Source: Thioalkalivibrio thiocyanoxidans ARh2 (lineage in GTDB: Bacteria; Pseudomonadota; Gammaproteobacteria; Ectothiorhodospirales; Ectothiorhodospiraceae). From it: a stretch of DNA of 47,685 nt. Numbering within the stretch: the first letter of the stretch is position 1; each line of letters begins with the position of its first letter. The position numbers were made by a program, and so were the translations under genes. The stretch spans positions 1-47,685 of the forward strand of contig NZ_ARQK01000037.1 in the NCBI RefSeq assembly GCF_000385215.1, given 5' to 3'. Under the pieces are notes generated by a model, which was not told the DNA's origin, made no database searches, and saw only the letters and a list, made by a program, of their open reading frames with translations. Shown one piece after another: positions 21,048 to 26,636 of this stretch.

Positions 21048-22271
21048 TCAGTGGTCGTGATGCCACAGAACGACCTGCATGAGGTCGACCCGCTGCTGCT
21101 CGAAGCCCACCTCGCAGTAGGCAAGGTAGTAGCGCCACATGCGCAGGAACTCGGGGGTGTATCCCAGTGCCTCGATGACCGGTTCTGCCTGGCGCACTTC
21201 GCGATCCCAGCGGCGCAGGGTCTCGGCATAGTCCAGGCCGAAGAACCGCTGATCGCCGATCGCGAGGCCCGCTCTGCGCGCCGCCTCGTTGAAGCGGGGG
21301 ACCGAGGGCAGCATGCCGCCCGGGAAGACATAGAGCTGGATGAAATCCGCATTGTTGCGGTAGTAGTCGAACGCGGCCTCGTCGATGGTGATGACCTGCA
21401 TTGCGGCGCGCCCGCCGGGGCGCAGGCAGGCGCGAACGGTCTCGAAGAAGCTGGGCCACCACTGCTGCCCGACGGCTTCGAACATCTCGATCGACACGAC
21501 GTGGTCGAACTGGCCGCGCAGATCGCGATAGTCCTGCAGGCGCAGCTCGACACGGTCGGCGAGGCCGGCGCGCTCGATCCGCTCGCGGGCATAGTCGAGC
21601 TGCTCCTGCGACAGGGTGATGGCCGTGACCCGGTGACCGCGGCGCGCGGCCAGCTCGGCGAAGCCGCCCCAGCCGCAGCCGATTTCGAGGATGTGCGTGC
21701 CCGGGGCCGCGTCGAGTTGCTGCAGCAGCCGCTCGTACTTGCGCTGCTGGGCGCTCTCCAGCGCCTCGTCGCCACGACTGAACAGGGCGGCGGAGTAGCT
21801 CATGCCCGGATCCAGCCAGAGCCGGTAGAAGTCGTTGCCGAGATCGTAGTGGAAGCGGATGTTGGCACGACTGCCGCGGCGACTGTTGCGGTGCCACCAG
21901 TGGCGCAGGGCGTCGAACTGGCGCTGGATGACGGGGCGGGCCGCGAGATCGGCCAGTGCGGCCTCGTTGTCGGTGGCCAGGTGCAGCAGGCCCTTCAGGT
22001 CCGGCGTGCCCCAGTCGCCGGCGATGTAGCCCTCGGCAAAGCCGAGATCCCCGTGGCGCAGGATGCGCAGCAGCGCTCGCCAGGGCCGCTTGAGGTGCCA
22101 GATGGACTCGCGGCCGGGGCGCGCGCCCCGCACGACCTCCCGTTCCCCGCGAGGGCCGACCAGCGTCAGTTGTCCCTGTTCGAGACCGCGCAGGGTCCGG
22201 GCGATCAGCTGCAGGGCCCAGTGCCGGCGGGTGGCGAACTCGGTGGTCGCGCTTCCTTGTTCGACGGACAT
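21048..22271 (-). CDS. Cyclopropane-fatty-acid-synthase-like methyltransferase
   Basis: 407 residues of the CFA synthase family. The N-terminal lipid-binding region (1-110, with LGFAEGYIAGDWGTPDLKGL) is followed by the SAM domain. HYDLGNDFYRLWLDPGMSYS near 140 is a family signature. LEIGCGWGGFAELAARRGH near 195 binds SAM, and QEQLDYARERIERAGL follows. The C-terminal WRYYLAYCEVGFEQQRVDLM is also typical. The family methylates the double bond of unsaturated acyl chains in the membrane; related enzymes take part in furan-fatty-acid synthesis. Always paired here with a DUF1365 protein and an FAD oxidoreductase, it is unlikely to be a plain housekeeping CFA synthase. Its ATG overlaps the DUF1365 stop by one base (TGATG). 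Confidence 0.9.
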   Translation of the reverse strand: MSVEQGSATTEFATRRHWALQLIARTLRGLEQGQLTLVGPRGEREVVRGARPGRESIWHLKRPWRALLRILRHGDLGFAEGYIAGDWGTPDLKGLLHLATDNEAALADLAARPVIQRQFDALRHWWHRNSRRGSRANIRFHYDLGNDFYRLWLDPGMSYSAALFSRGDEALESAQQRKYERLLQQLDAAPGTHILEIGCGWGGFAELAARRGHRVTAITLSQEQLDYARERIERAGLADRVELRLQDYRDLRGQFDHVVSIEMFEAVGQQWWPSFFETVRACLRPGGRAAMQVITIDEAAFDYYRNNADFIQLYVFPGGMLPSVPRFNEAARRAGLAIGDQRFFGLDYAETLRRWDREVRQAEPVIEALGYTPEFLRMWRYYLAYCEVGFEQQRVDLMQVVLWHHDH

Positions 22272-23041
22272 CAGTGTATCTCCTGTTGCGGCGGCGCGGG
22301 GCGCGCGTGATAGCGCCCGCCACGCAGCCAGATCTTGAGCGCCTGCCAGTGGATCAGCGGCAGGACCTTGAGGGTCATCCAGGGCTGGTGAAGCAACGCG
22401 GCCAGCAGCGTTCGGTCGCTGAAGGTACGCAGGCGGCCGTGCTGGGTCGCGACCAGGAACGGTGAACCCGCCCGGGTCTCGCGGATTGCCAGCCGCACCC
22501 TGGCGCCGCGTTCGAGCCGCGCGGGCGAGATGGCGAAGGCGTAGCGCGCATCCATGTCGATGAACGGGGACACGTGAAAGGCCTTGTCCTTCTCCTGGCG
22601 TACCGGCGTGGTCATGGCGCGACCGTCTTCGTGCAGCAGGTAGTGGTGGTGCTCGCCGAAGGTGTTGCGGACTTCCAGCAGTACGCCGCGCAACCCGCCA
22701 TCCGCGTGATAGGCGAACCAGACGCTGAGCGGATTGAACGCGTGTCCGAATACGCGCGGCATCGCGAGCAGGTGGATCGCGCCGCCCGCGAGCTCGATGC
22801 CGTGCTCGGCGAGAGAGGACTCGATCCAGGGCCGCCAGGGGCGTCCATCGCGGGGACCATGGTCGCGGGTATGCAGGCTGAACAGGTTGAAACGGTCCAG
22901 CGAGAAAAGCCGGCAGCGCGCCGCGGTGGCGTCCAGCCGATCGATGTCGAACAGCGCGGCGGTGACCGGATAGCGAAAGCGGTACGCCGGCGGCGCGATG
23001 CGCTGATGCATGACCGATGTGTAGACCAGGGCCGCATCCAT
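22271..23041 (-). CDS. DUF1365 family protein
   Basis: 256 residues of the DUF1365 family. YTSVMHQRIAPPAYRFRYPV at the N-terminus, AMPRVFGHAFNPLSVWFAYH near 115 and the VSPFIDMDARYAF segment near 165 are family hallmarks. The biochemical function is not established. The gene is almost always found between an FAD/NAD-binding oxidoreductase and a CFA-like methyltransferase, as here, so a role in modifying membrane fatty acids is likely. It starts 9 bp after the oxidoreductase stop and is coupled to the methyltransferase (TGATG). Confidence 0.9.
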   Translation of the reverse strand: MDAALVYTSVMHQRIAPPAYRFRYPVTAALFDIDRLDATAARCRLFSLDRFNLFSLHTRDHGPRDGRPWRPWIESSLAEHGIELAGGAIHLLAMPRVFGHAFNPLSVWFAYHADGGLRGVLLEVRNTFGEHHHYLLHEDGRAMTTPVRQEKDKAFHVSPFIDMDARYAFAISPARLERGARVRLAIRETRAGSPFLVATQHGRLRTFSDRTLLAALLHQPWMTLKVLPLIHWQALKIWLRGGRYHARPAPPQQEIH

Positions 23042-23050
23042 GCCGATGCC

Positions 23051-24436
23051 TCAGATATCCTCGGGTCGTGCGGCGGGTGCCGCGGCCGGCGTTGCCCCGC
23101 CCCCGTTGATCGGCTTCGGGCCTTCGGGCATCGCAGCGGGTCTAGCGGTGGCCGGTCCCGCAGGCGTGGAATGCCATGGCGGTGCGATGCCCATCGCCTC
23201 GCCGATGGCGACGGCGGAGCGCAGGCCGTCCTCGTGGAAACCGTCGCCCATCCAGGCCCCGGCGAAATAGAGCCCGTCCTGTCCCTGGCGAGCCATCAGA
23301 CGCTGGCGGGCGGTCTCGGCGGGGGCATCCATCACCGGGTGTTCCCACAGGTGCTCGCCGAGCACCGTGGTGGGGTGGGGTTCGCGCCAGGGGTTCAGGC
23401 TGATCACGTAGTCGCGGCGGCGTTGCAGGTCATGCAGGCGGTTCATCCAGTAGGAAACCGAGACCCGTTCGCCGGGCTGTGTGGTGCGCCCGCTCAGGTA
23501 GTTCCAGGAGGACCAGACCCGGCGCGAGCGGGGCATCAGGGTCGGGTCGGTATGGACGACCGCGCGGTTCTCCTGGAAGCGGCAGTCGGCCAGCAGGCGG
23601 TCGAGCGAGGGCATGGCCCGCCCCAGGAGGCGGCGGGCGTCGTTGGCATGACAGGCAAAGACGACCTGATCGAATCCCTCGGAGCGTTCCGCGGTCAGCA
23701 CGCGCCACTGTCCGTCTTCGGGAATCACGGCGCGGACGGCCTCGTGGACCACGCTTCGTGGTTCGAGCCGCGCCGCCAGGCGTTGCACGTATTCGCGGCT
23801 GCCCCCGCGCACGGTGCGCCACTGCGGGCGGTTGCGCAGGTCCAGCAGCCCGTGGTTGCGAAAGAAACGCAGGAAGCTTGCGGCCGGGAATTCGCGGATG
23901 GATTCCGGCGGCGCGGACCAGATCGCGGCGGCCATCGGCAGCAGGTAGTCCTCGATGAAGCCCCGGCCGAAACGGTGCCGCGAAAGGAAGCGATTCAGGG
24001 TGCCTGGCGGCACCTCGCCGCGCTCGAACAGCCGGTGGCCCAGGCGGTTGAAGCGGAGGATGTCGGCTCCCATGCGCAGAAAACGGGGGCTGAGCAGGTT
24101 GCGCCGCTGGGCGAACAGGGTGTTCAGGTCGCTGCCGGCGTACTCCACACCATGGGGCTGGCGGGAACAGGAGAACGACATGTCAGTGGGCTGGGTTGGC
24201 ACGTCCAGGTCGCTGAACAGCCGGGTCAGCAGCGGATAGTTGCGCTCGTTGTACACCACGAACCCGGTGTCGATCCGGGCAGGGCCTTCCGGATCGGACA
24301 CCTCGATGGTGTGCGCATGGCCTCCCAGTTCCGGGGCCGCCTCGAACAGGCATACCGGGTGGCGCGACTGCAGGATCCAGCTGCTGGCCAGCCCGGCGAT
24401 GCCGCCACCGATTACGGCGATGCGAGAGGTGCTCAT
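23051..24436 (-). CDS. FAD-dependent oxidoreductase (COG2907-type, amine-oxidase/desaturase fold)
   Basis: 461 residues. RIAVIGGGIAGLASSWILQ at 5-23 is the FAD-binding Rossmann motif and FEAAPELGGHAHTI at about 31-44 is its second part. IDTGFVVYNERNYPLLTRLF near 54 is typical of COG2907. YFAGAWMGDGFHEDGLRSA near 405 is the C-terminal FAD motif. A Pro/Ala-rich tail of about 35 residues is unusual. The protein probably oxidises or dehydrogenates an acyl chain in the pathway of the two genes downstream, but the substrate is not known. It is the first gene of the minus-strand operon, and its start lies 31 bp from the direct-repeat operator at 24468-24504. Confidence 0.88.
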   Translation of the reverse strand: MSTSRIAVIGGGIAGLASSWILQSRHPVCLFEAAPELGGHAHTIEVSDPEGPARIDTGFVVYNERNYPLLTRLFSDLDVPTQPTDMSFSCSRQPHGVEYAGSDLNTLFAQRRNLLSPRFLRMGADILRFNRLGHRLFERGEVPPGTLNRFLSRHRFGRGFIEDYLLPMAAAIWSAPPESIREFPAASFLRFFRNHGLLDLRNRPQWRTVRGGSREYVQRLAARLEPRSVVHEAVRAVIPEDGQWRVLTAERSEGFDQVVFACHANDARRLLGRAMPSLDRLLADCRFQENRAVVHTDPTLMPRSRRVWSSWNYLSGRTTQPGERVSVSYWMNRLHDLQRRRDYVISLNPWREPHPTTVLGEHLWEHPVMDAPAETARQRLMARQGQDGLYFAGAWMGDGFHEDGLRSAVAIGEAMGIAPPWHSTPAGPATARPAAMPEGPKPINGGGATPAAAPAARPEDI

Positions 24437-24467
24437 GGCGGCGACTCCGGTTCGATACAGGGGGTGA

Positions 24468-24504
24468 TGTACAACTTATACAGTACCTGTACAATGCCTG
24501 TAAA
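24468..24504. promoter_or_regulatory. Divergent promoter with 11-bp direct repeats (CarH/LitR-type operator)
   Basis: TATACA (24477), TGTACA (24488) and TGTAAA (24499) recur at exactly 11-bp steps. A fourth TGTACA lies at 24468, out of phase by 2 bp. The T-n-n-A-C-A direct repeats at 11-bp spacing are the arrangement described for operators of the B12-dependent photoreceptor-repressor CarH and its LitR relatives. The segment also overlaps likely promoters in both directions: TGTACA-N16-TACAAT on the plus strand, and TTTACA-N18-TATAAG on the minus strand. It sits between the FAD oxidoreductase operon and the glutathione peroxidase operon and could switch both. The repressor gene is not in the window. 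Confidence 0.6.
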
Positions 24505-24568
24505 TGGTAGCGGTCCTGATTACGGCGTACGGTGGGGCTCAAGGGCCCCGGACGTGGAGGGTGTGACG

Positions 24569-25141
24569 ATGCGTTCAGGTAGTCGGTTGCTGGGAGTGGT
24601 GTTGCTGGTCTGGGCTGGTGTGTGGTCCCACGTGGCGGCGGGCGAGGCTGGGGCGTCATGCCCCGCCAGTCTGGACTTCGAGCTGCGCCCATTGGCGGCC
24701 TCGGAGCCGGTGCGCCTTTGCGATCGCCATGCCGGGCAGGTGCTGCTGGTGGTCAATACGGCCAGCCAGTGTGGCTTTACGCCTCAGTACGAGGGTCTGG
24801 AGGCGCTGGATGCAGAGCTGCGGGATCGGGGGTTCCACGTGGTCGGTTTCCCCTCCGGTGACTTTGCCGGGCAGGAGTACGAGGACGAGGCGGATATCGC
24901 CGAGTTCTGCCGGTCCAATTACGGGATCCAGTTCCCGATGTACGAGAAGGTGCACGCCTCGCGGCGTCACGCGGTGCCCGGCACGCTTTATCACTACCTG
25001 GGGACGGCCGCCGGCGAGTTTCCGTCCTGGAATTTTCACAAGTACCTGATCGGGCGCGACGGCGAGGTGCTGGCCTCGTTCGGCACGCGCGTGACACCCG
25101 AGGACCGGCGCCTGCGCGCCGCGATTGAGGCGGCGCTATGA
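24569..25141 (+). CDS. Exported glutathione peroxidase family protein
   Basis: 190 residues. The N-terminus ([20 protein letters not shown]) is a signal peptide, so the enzyme probably works in the periplasm. [19 protein letters not shown] carries the peroxidatic Cys. [10 protein letters not shown] supplies the Gln of the active site, and [15 protein letters not shown] supplies the Trp and Asn. The Cys found in the FPCNQF motif of many bacterial peroxidases is Ser here, so the resolving step must differ. It reduces peroxides or lipid hydroperoxides with a thiol partner. GTGGAGG precedes the ATG. It heads the plus-strand operon, 64 bp after the direct-repeat operator, and overlaps the DUF3429 gene by 4 bases. 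Confidence 0.9.
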
Positions 25142-25953
25142 ACGACACCGCACAGGGCATGAGCAGCTGGCCCAGGGAGTTACGCGAGGCACTGGAGGGG
25201 CACGAGGTCGTGGCGATCACCTCCGCGTTGTCCGACGTGCGCGAGGCCGAGGCCCTGCTGGATGCGATGCTGCCCGGTCAATGGGTGCGTCTGGAGTGGG
25301 GGATGGGATCCGCGCACAACCGCGAGCAGTTCCACGTCCTGCAGCAGGCGACAGGGGCCGATGTGCTGCCGTTTTTCGTGGCGCGGGACGGGCCGGTCGG
25401 AGGGCTCCCCGAGTTGCGCGAGTATCTGGGCGCGCGGGCGGTCGCGGCCGGCGCCAGCCGGGGGCGTCACGGCGTGGCCGAAGAGGTACCGTCATCGCAG
25501 CAGGCCGCGGAAGGTTCGGCGCCGGTGCTCCAGGTGCTTGGATACGGTGGTCTGATCCCCTTTGTGGCGCTGGGCTTCGGCGCCTGGATGGCCCAGCCGG
25601 AATGGCAGGTTTTCGCGCTGGAGGCCCTGGCGTTTTATGGTGCGGTGATCCTGTCGTTCCTGGGGGCCATCCACTGGGGGCTTTATCTGGCGGATCGCGG
25701 CCACCGGGTGGGGCCCCTGTCGGCACCCGTGTGGGCGGTGGTACCGGCGATCCTTGCCTGGCTGGCGTTGCTGCAGCCCCTGCCCGAGGCGCTGATGACC
25801 CTGGCCGCCCTGTTTCTGGGCGTGCTCTGGGTGGATCGCCTGAGCCTGCGCGGCAGGTGTCTGCCGCGCGGCTATATGGGTCTGCGCATGGCGCTGACAG
25901 CGGTGGCCATCGTGTCGCTGGCCTCCGGACTGGCCGTTATTATGGCGGGCTGA
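25138..25953 (+). CDS. Glutaredoxin-like domain fused to a DUF3429 membrane protein
   Basis: 271 residues in two parts. Residues 10-100 look like a glutaredoxin fold: [19 protein letters not shown] occupies the position of the first strand and active site, and [20 protein letters not shown] matches the VPQIFIDGKHIGGCDDL segment. The CxxC motif is absent, so it is not a dithiol enzyme. Residues 130-271 are a DUF3429 domain with four or five membrane segments ([37 protein letters not shown]). DUF3429 proteins are usually about 150 residues and stand alone. The gene overlaps the peroxidase by ATGA and precedes folE by 53 bp. A membrane-bound partner of the peroxidase is a reasonable guess and no more. 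Confidence 0.72.
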
Positions 25954-26006: not shown

Positions 26007-26636
26007 ATGCAAGCAGATCCCCGAACCGTGGATGAGCCCGAGGCCAGCAGTGCCGACGGGCGTCCGCTGCCGGCCCCCGAAGCGCTGGCCCGTCATTACC
26101 GCGAGATCCTCGCCGGCCTGAACGAAGACCCGAACCGGGAGGGCCTGCTGGATACGCCGATGCGGGCGGCCAAGGCGATGCAGTACCTGACCCGCGGGTA
26201 TCACCAGGACCTCGACACCATCGTCAACGGGGCGTTGTTCAGTTCCGACAATGACGAGATGGTGCTGCTGCGCGACATCGAGCTGTATTCGCTGTGCGAG
26301 CATCATCTGCTGCCGATCATCGGCAAGGTGCATGTCGCCTATCTGCCCAATGGCAAGGTGATCGGGTTGTCCAAGATCGCGCGGATTGTCGATATGTACG
26401 CCGCGCGTCTGCAGATCCAGGAAAACCTGACGCGACAGATTGCCGAGGCCCTGATGCAGGTCACCAATGCCAAGGGTGTGGGTGTAGTGGTGGATGCCAA
26501 GCACATGTGCATGACCATGCGCGGGGTGGAAAAGCAGCACTCGTCGATGGCGACCTCGGTGATGCTGGGTGCCTTCCGCGAGGATGCGCGCACCCGCCGC
26601 GAGTTCCTGAATCTGATCCACAGCTCCCGCGACTGA
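26007..26636 (+). CDS. folE: GTP cyclohydrolase I (type IA)
   Basis: 209 residues from the ATG at 26007, which has AAGGA 7 bases upstream. An ATG at 25983 would add 8 residues. [20 protein letters not shown] near 100 provides the Zn ligands Cys and His, and [15 protein letters not shown] near 170 provides the second Zn Cys. These mark the canonical FolE. It converts GTP to dihydroneopterin triphosphate for folate. It is the third gene of the operon with the glutathione peroxidase and DUF3429 gene. A folE copy in a stress or light regulon may serve extra pterin demand (for example photolyase chromophore), but that is an inference. Confidence 0.95.

Follow-up and report, generated by a model that had tools for sequence, protein, structure and literature searches.

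Our analysis points to three direct repeats at exact 11-bp steps, placed between two divergent operons of Thioalkalivibrio thiocyanoxidans ARh2, as the well-supported operator of a CarH/LitR-family regulator. We consider it likely that this regulator (LitR), which appears to have no working B12 domain, represses both operons and that a short LOV protein lifts the repression in blue light. The array lies in the window (the whole 47,685-nucleotide stretch that was analysed) within positions 24437–24568, a gap that runs exactly from the ATG of an FAD oxidoreductase gene (FADox; 24436, minus strand) to the ATG of a peroxidase gene (24569). The CarH/LitR assignment is well supported because the array is conserved, because a single long homologue of the family lies beside phrB and has 11-bp repeats of its own, and because regulator and operator are linked in sister genera. 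The sequence-only reading of this region had proposed a B12-dependent CarH/LitR switch of both arms by light or singlet oxygen; its regulator family, conserved repeats, further repeats at the litR promoter and target-like flanking genes stood, whereas B12 dependence and singlet-oxygen sensing through ChrR did not.

Table 1. Features of the operator region, of the two arms and of related genes elsewhere (window positions unless a genome, contig or locus handle precedes them; G000 is the window genome)
Feature	Position	Strand	Basis
Candidate UfaM, cyclopropane-synthase-like methyltransferase (CFA)	21048..22271	-	PF02353 E 8.5e-83
Candidate UfaO, DUF1365 protein	22271..23041	-	PF07103 E 2.8e-77
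Candidate UfaD, FAD-dependent amine-oxidase-like oxidoreductase (FADox)	23051..24436	-	PF01593, PF13450
Probable rightward promoter, TGTACA (-35-like)-N16-TACAAT (-10)	24468..24495	+	promoter scan
Operator, TATACA 24477-24482, TGTACA 24488-24493, TGTAAA 24499-24504	24474..24504	+	three 11-bp direct repeats
Probable leftward promoter, TTTACA-N18-TATAAG	24475..24504 (24504 down to 24475)	-	by eye
Glutathione peroxidase family protein (GPx)	24569..25141	+	PF00255
C-terminal DUF3429 protein	25138..25953	+	PF11911 at residues 131-265
GTP cyclohydrolase I, FolE	26007..26636	+	PF01227; TIGR00063 above cut-off
LitR, 327 aa	G000:C52:80498-81478	-	PF13411 E 1.1e-17
Short LOV protein, 147 aa	G000:C55:13833-14273	-	PAS_9
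Tll0287-like gene, upstream of LOV	L127:6455-7063	-	PF11845

The hexamers TATACA, TGTACA and TGTAAA, which the sequence-only reading had picked out by their 11-bp step, were borne out at their window positions, by shuffling and by their uniqueness in the genome: the three-repeat pattern gave a mean of 0.00 matches in 100 window shuffles, and its strict form occurs at a single site across 2.77 Mb, with none for the reversed control pattern. The array only partly fits the CarH operator consensus nAnnTnnACAn, as worded in PMC8156234: its third repeat, TGTAAA, is without the first A of the consensus. With up to two mismatches allowed, the genome search returned 25 places vs. 14 for the reversed control; 15 of the 25 made loci, among which tblastn with 12 genes matched the C37 and C52 loci only, and two of the other 10 were looked at, C55:15106 and the second site at the litR promoter. 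An exact TGTACA-N5-TGTACA at C29:23789 was judged by eye to be unrelated to the operator.

Homologues of FADox defined 45 loci, 20 of them in Thioalkalivibrio (best at 89% protein identity). The upstream regions of these 20 (L022–L041) were taken without selecting for the array, and every one carries it. Across the window and the 20 loci (21 rows), the three repeats keep the 11-bp step without exception, 22 of 29 array columns are invariant, and pairwise identity averages 0.86 within the array as against 0.39 upstream and 0.34 downstream; the repeats are thus conserved in close relatives, as the CarH/LitR proposal supposed. The invariant columns outside the hexamers are a T preceding the first, the AT that follows the second and the A at 24485, where nAnnTnnACAn, laid over the second repeat, has its first A. 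Four Guyparkeria/Halothiobacillus loci show, by eye, TGTATA-N5-TGTACA-N5-TGCAYA, and no array was found by eye or by regular expression at the remaining 21 FADox loci, all of which are distant. Searched across whole genomes, the strict operator pattern is present in 26 of 30 members of the genus and in 6 of 17 outside it (32/47 overall), and the reversed control in none.

Gene order in relatives ties the operator to litR and to phrB (photolyase), which adjoin it in two sister genera (genomes G002, G008 and G043). In G002, litR, phrB, folE and the FADox–DUF1365–CFA genes lie around one array; G043 has CFA–DUF1365–FADox, the array, GPx–DUF3429–FolE and then phrB and litR; FADox, FolE, PhrB and LitR are consecutive in G008. 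In five further genomes (G001, G004, G005, G006 and G010) litR, phrB, folE and FADox are still grouped, with an array of which two repeats are clear and the rest is degenerate. In G041 the litR–phrB pair is on a separate contig, and the LOV gene and the Tll0287-like gene sit beside the block's folE. Six relatives (L178–L183, from G016, G017, G018, G020, G021 and G025) also have an array of this form flanked by a PAS-protein gene on one side and a lipoprotein-like gene on the other. One of these PAS proteins was scanned and combines PAS with MCP-signal domains; one lipoprotein-like protein, also scanned, matched no Pfam family. The strict-pattern search of the window genome gave no such array.

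Pfam searches confirmed the gene content claimed for both arms (Table 1). The left arm is a probable furan-fatty-acid pathway built of candidate UfaD, UfaO and UfaM homologues, since PMC7380195 describes DUF1365 in UfaO homologues and a predicted NAD and FAD binding by UfaD. The candidate UfaD is assigned from operon context and the same paper, and the candidate UfaM falls under the cut-off of each NCBIfam CFA model among the matches listed. On the right, the glutathione peroxidase family protein is probably exported, judging by eye from its N terminus, and the N-terminal part of the DUF3429 protein has no Pfam match. In 10 of the 20 Thioalkalivibrio loci (L024–L031, L038 and L040) the operator is kept although no peroxidase gene separates it from the DUF3429 gene.

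A search of the genome for the carH/litR gene that the sequence-only reading called for returned one long homologue. Two MerR_1 matches exceed the cut-off and a third is weak, and only the protein on C52 has a long C-terminal part behind its N-terminal MerR helix-turn-helix. Its closest PDB relatives by sequence are Thermus thermophilus LitR and CarH. The AlphaFold model (mean pLDDT 83.8, pTM 0.62; input 22 of 30 LitR loci) has CarH 5c8e as its best fold match (E 1.1e-15) and reaches a TM score of up to 0.79, by target length, against CarH cobalamin-domain structures; the best NCBIfam match is likewise CarH, at 84.5 bits vs. a cut-off of 400. We assign the protein to the CarH/LitR family, MerR type, with a helix-turn-helix and a C-terminal CarH-like fold. 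A LitR above 200 bits is present in 27 of the 30 genus genomes, and the three without one are 58–77% complete. A plasmid search returned 215 records, none of them a closer named class II protein; six reach a coverage of 80% or more, all of them Thermus CarH with about 29% identity.

The regulator gene, followed on the same strand by phrB, has repeats at the 11-bp step in its own promoter (plus strand, TGTACA-N5-TGTACG-N5-TGTACC). All 29 loci with usable upstream sequence, out of 30 LitR loci (L097–L126), have a pair at the 11-bp step, and 17 have three repeats; pairs at 22 bp, twice 11, occur in 17 and those at any other step from 7 to 21 bp in at most 9. A –10-like TACAAT stands close before litR in 24 of the 29 and ends exactly six bases before the ATG in 20 of these 24, which suggests that the litR mRNA is leaderless or nearly so.

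Of the 36 PAS_9 matches that the genome gave, the protein encoded on C55 is the strongest. Among solved structures it is closest to short LOV proteins (5luv at E 1.3e-56; 3sw1 and others), its photoactive-cysteine motif, DCRFLQ, is identical to that of 5luv, and its Pfam content is PAS domains without an effector. By sequence it classes as a short LOV photoreceptor, closely related to the Pseudomonas short LOVs. It scores above 220 bits in all 30 Thioalkalivibrio genomes and, outside the genus, above 200 bits in 6 of 17, the same six that hold the strict operator pattern. We do not take this coincidence as decisive: the five genomes with the block and degenerate repeats have no LOV above 200 bits, their LOV-like matches scoring 128–134. 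In the window genome the LOV gene is not adjacent to litR; upstream of it lies the Tll0287-like gene, which was found in 18 of 20 loci examined (the window genome included) and has an 11-bp pair in its promoter in 16 of the 18, any other step occurring in 0–5. Because a terminator-like hairpin, seen by eye, separates this gene from the LOV gene, the latter may be transcribed on its own. Taken together, the short LOV appears the better sensor candidate than B12.

By analogy with Pseudomonas, we infer dark repression, LOV–LitR contact and light induction, and with them light control of both arms. In the dark, an oligomer of LitR would occupy the three 11-bp repeats, which overlie the promoter boxes of the two divergent operons, and would exclude RNA polymerase. 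Under blue light, the short LOV would form its flavin–cysteine adduct, bind LitR and remove it from DNA; both arms, litR–phrB and the Tll0287-like gene would then be switched on together, yielding the probable furan-fatty-acid pathway on the left and the peroxidase, the DUF3429 protein and FolE on the right. In P. mendocina, as reported in PMC9758184, blue light raises phrB and ufaM 25–33-fold and folE 1.6–3.3-fold, and the illuminated short LOV stops a class II LitR (PmlR2) from binding DNA. We put at about even odds the further proposal of a hybrid switch, in which a B12-free LitR would bind 11-bp repeats in the CarH mode and take its light signal from the separate short LOV. Its reach, which we hold with the same balanced confidence, would take in DNA repair, membrane-lipid and peroxide protection, the Tll0287-like protein and a PAS chemoreceptor of some relatives.

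It is also conceivable that LitR sits on the array and answers to a signal other than this LOV, whether a redox cue, a chromophore carried by LitR itself or a different PAS or LOV protein. The five family genomes that keep the block without a LOV above 200 bits argue that this LOV is not always the partner of LitR, and they count against the LOV model together with the 11-bp rather than 18-bp step, the undetected PF02607, the position of the LOV gene away from litR in the window genome and the number of PAS_9 proteins there. Precedents exist as well: a class III LitR is reported to change its own absorption spectrum (PMC9758184), and a MerR-like regulator of Vibrio cholerae is drawn as ROS-responsive in PMC5241685. 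The LOV is nevertheless present in every genome of the genus, operator repeats stand at the gene next to it, and the LOV–LitR pairing was shown biochemically in P. mendocina (PMC9758184); we regard a signal other than this LOV as unlikely.

A true B12-dependent CarH, in which LitR would bind adenosylcobalamin and be switched by photolysis of the cobalt–carbon bond, is a good deal less probable. In its favour, LitR matches CarH best both in full-length fold and among NCBIfam models, the operator takes the CarH form of three 11-bp repeats described in PMC8156234, and a GGGH motif coincides with the H177 position or is off by one residue. However, with E values up to 5 admitted, neither PF02310 nor PF02607 matched any of four LitR homologues (most matches above about 0.1 are removed by the HMMER filters), the NCBIfam score lies well below its cut-off, and the sole B12-binding match of the genome falls in a 1311-aa frame other than LitR, probably MetH by its length. 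PMC11796333 gives roles to W131, E141 and H142 (the Wx9EH motif) and to H177, the cobalt ligand (GxxH). In the HMMER alignment of LitR with CarH, whose stretch here is weak and whose numbering is our own, W131 is replaced by Arg, E141–H142 fall in a gap, and Gln aligns with H177, with a His one residue before; in this weak stretch two of the three cobalamin-contact sites tested are thus lost. The His of the H177 region, moreover, is absent from some of 22 aligned LitR homologues. The B12-dependent photoreceptor of the sequence-only reading is left with a regulator in which no B12-binding domain was detected and the equivalents of W131 and E141/H142 are missing, and B12 dependence is not supported.

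The promoter-like boxes proposed in both directions are present. The rightward box, found by scan, is weak taken alone because one was found where 0.9 is expected, and the AT that finishes its TACAAT is invariant in all 21 aligned loci; the leftward box is absent from the promoter-scan list, and its TTTACA and TATAA are invariant in the same 21. The extra TGTACA at 24468, which had been counted with the repeats, is indeed there, out of the 11-bp register: it stands 9 bp before the first repeat, and because a pair with a 9-bp step occurs in 10 of the 21 loci, it fits a –35-like element better than an array repeat. In sister genera (L128–L130, L157, L184 and L185) a further TGTACA lies, by eye, 32 bp after the first repeat, on the opposite side from the extra hexamer of the window. 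As the boxes overlap the repeats, the hexamers might be read as mere divergent sigma-70 promoter boxes, or as the site of an unrelated regulator; we give this very little credence, since promoter boxes alone do not require an 11-bp step and such arrays recur at litR, at the Tll0287-like gene and at the PAS-MCP/lipoprotein promoter of the six relatives. Scarcely credible at all is singlet-oxygen control through ChrR and its sigma factor: PMC7380195 links furan-fatty-acid genes to chrR in Rhodobacter, but TIGR02451 (ChrR family) has no match in the genome (the control search matches 1 of 14 named genomes), which leaves the supposed singlet-oxygen switch without support from ChrR.

The preferred reading, LOV-controlled repression by LitR, has its nearest counterparts in Pseudomonas mendocina PmlR2/PmSB-LOV and P. 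putida PplR1–3, class II LitR proteins paired with short LOVs (PMC9758184). Shared with these, as described there, are a MerR regulator without a full B12 domain, a short LOV homologue, phrB beside litR, and an FAD oxidoreductase, ufaM and folE among the targets; the flanking genes are thus of the kinds that published class II LitR proteins control, in keeping with the CarH/LitR-type control first suggested for them. Unlike Pseudomonas, the window genome has one long LitR, a LOV gene that is not next to litR, and the peroxidase, DUF3429 and folE genes in a single divergent block. The Pseudomonas class II site given in PMC9758184, T(G/A)TACA-N12-TGTA(C/T)A, has an 18-bp step, whereas the promoters aligned here show pairs at 18 bp in 3/21 (FADox) and 1/29 (litR) cases, as against 21/21 and 29/29 at 11 bp; and the Pseudomonas proteins carry PF02607 (four-helix bundle), according to the same source, which was undetected in Thioalkalivibrio LitR. 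Passages of PMC11417400 call class II LitR B12-dependent, which passages of PMC9758184 contradict. Among the matches listed in our literature search we found no paper on LitR or short-LOV control in Thioalkalivibrio.

Rhodobacter and Rhodopseudomonas ufaM/ufaD/ufaO resemble the left arm in combining an NAD/FAD oxidoreductase, a DUF1365 protein and a SAM-dependent fatty-acyl methylase (PMC7380195), a likeness that rests on domains and operon context and makes our enzymes candidates; the Rhodobacter genes are chrR-linked in that account, whereas the Thioalkalivibrio arm is putatively under LitR. With class I CarH/LitR of Thermus thermophilus, LitR shares the fold and the three 11-bp direct repeats (PMC8156234) and differs in having no detected B12 domain and no equivalents of W131 and E141/H142. 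The combination of a CarH-like operator with a B12-free regulator is the novel part. If correct, our reading would extend LOV–LitR light control from Pseudomonas to a chemolithotrophic sulfur-oxidising genus that has just one long LitR and in which the operator is strictly conserved, predict a blue-light response of both arms that does not need B12, and imply that the 11-bp operator geometry of CarH outlived the loss of its B12 sensor.
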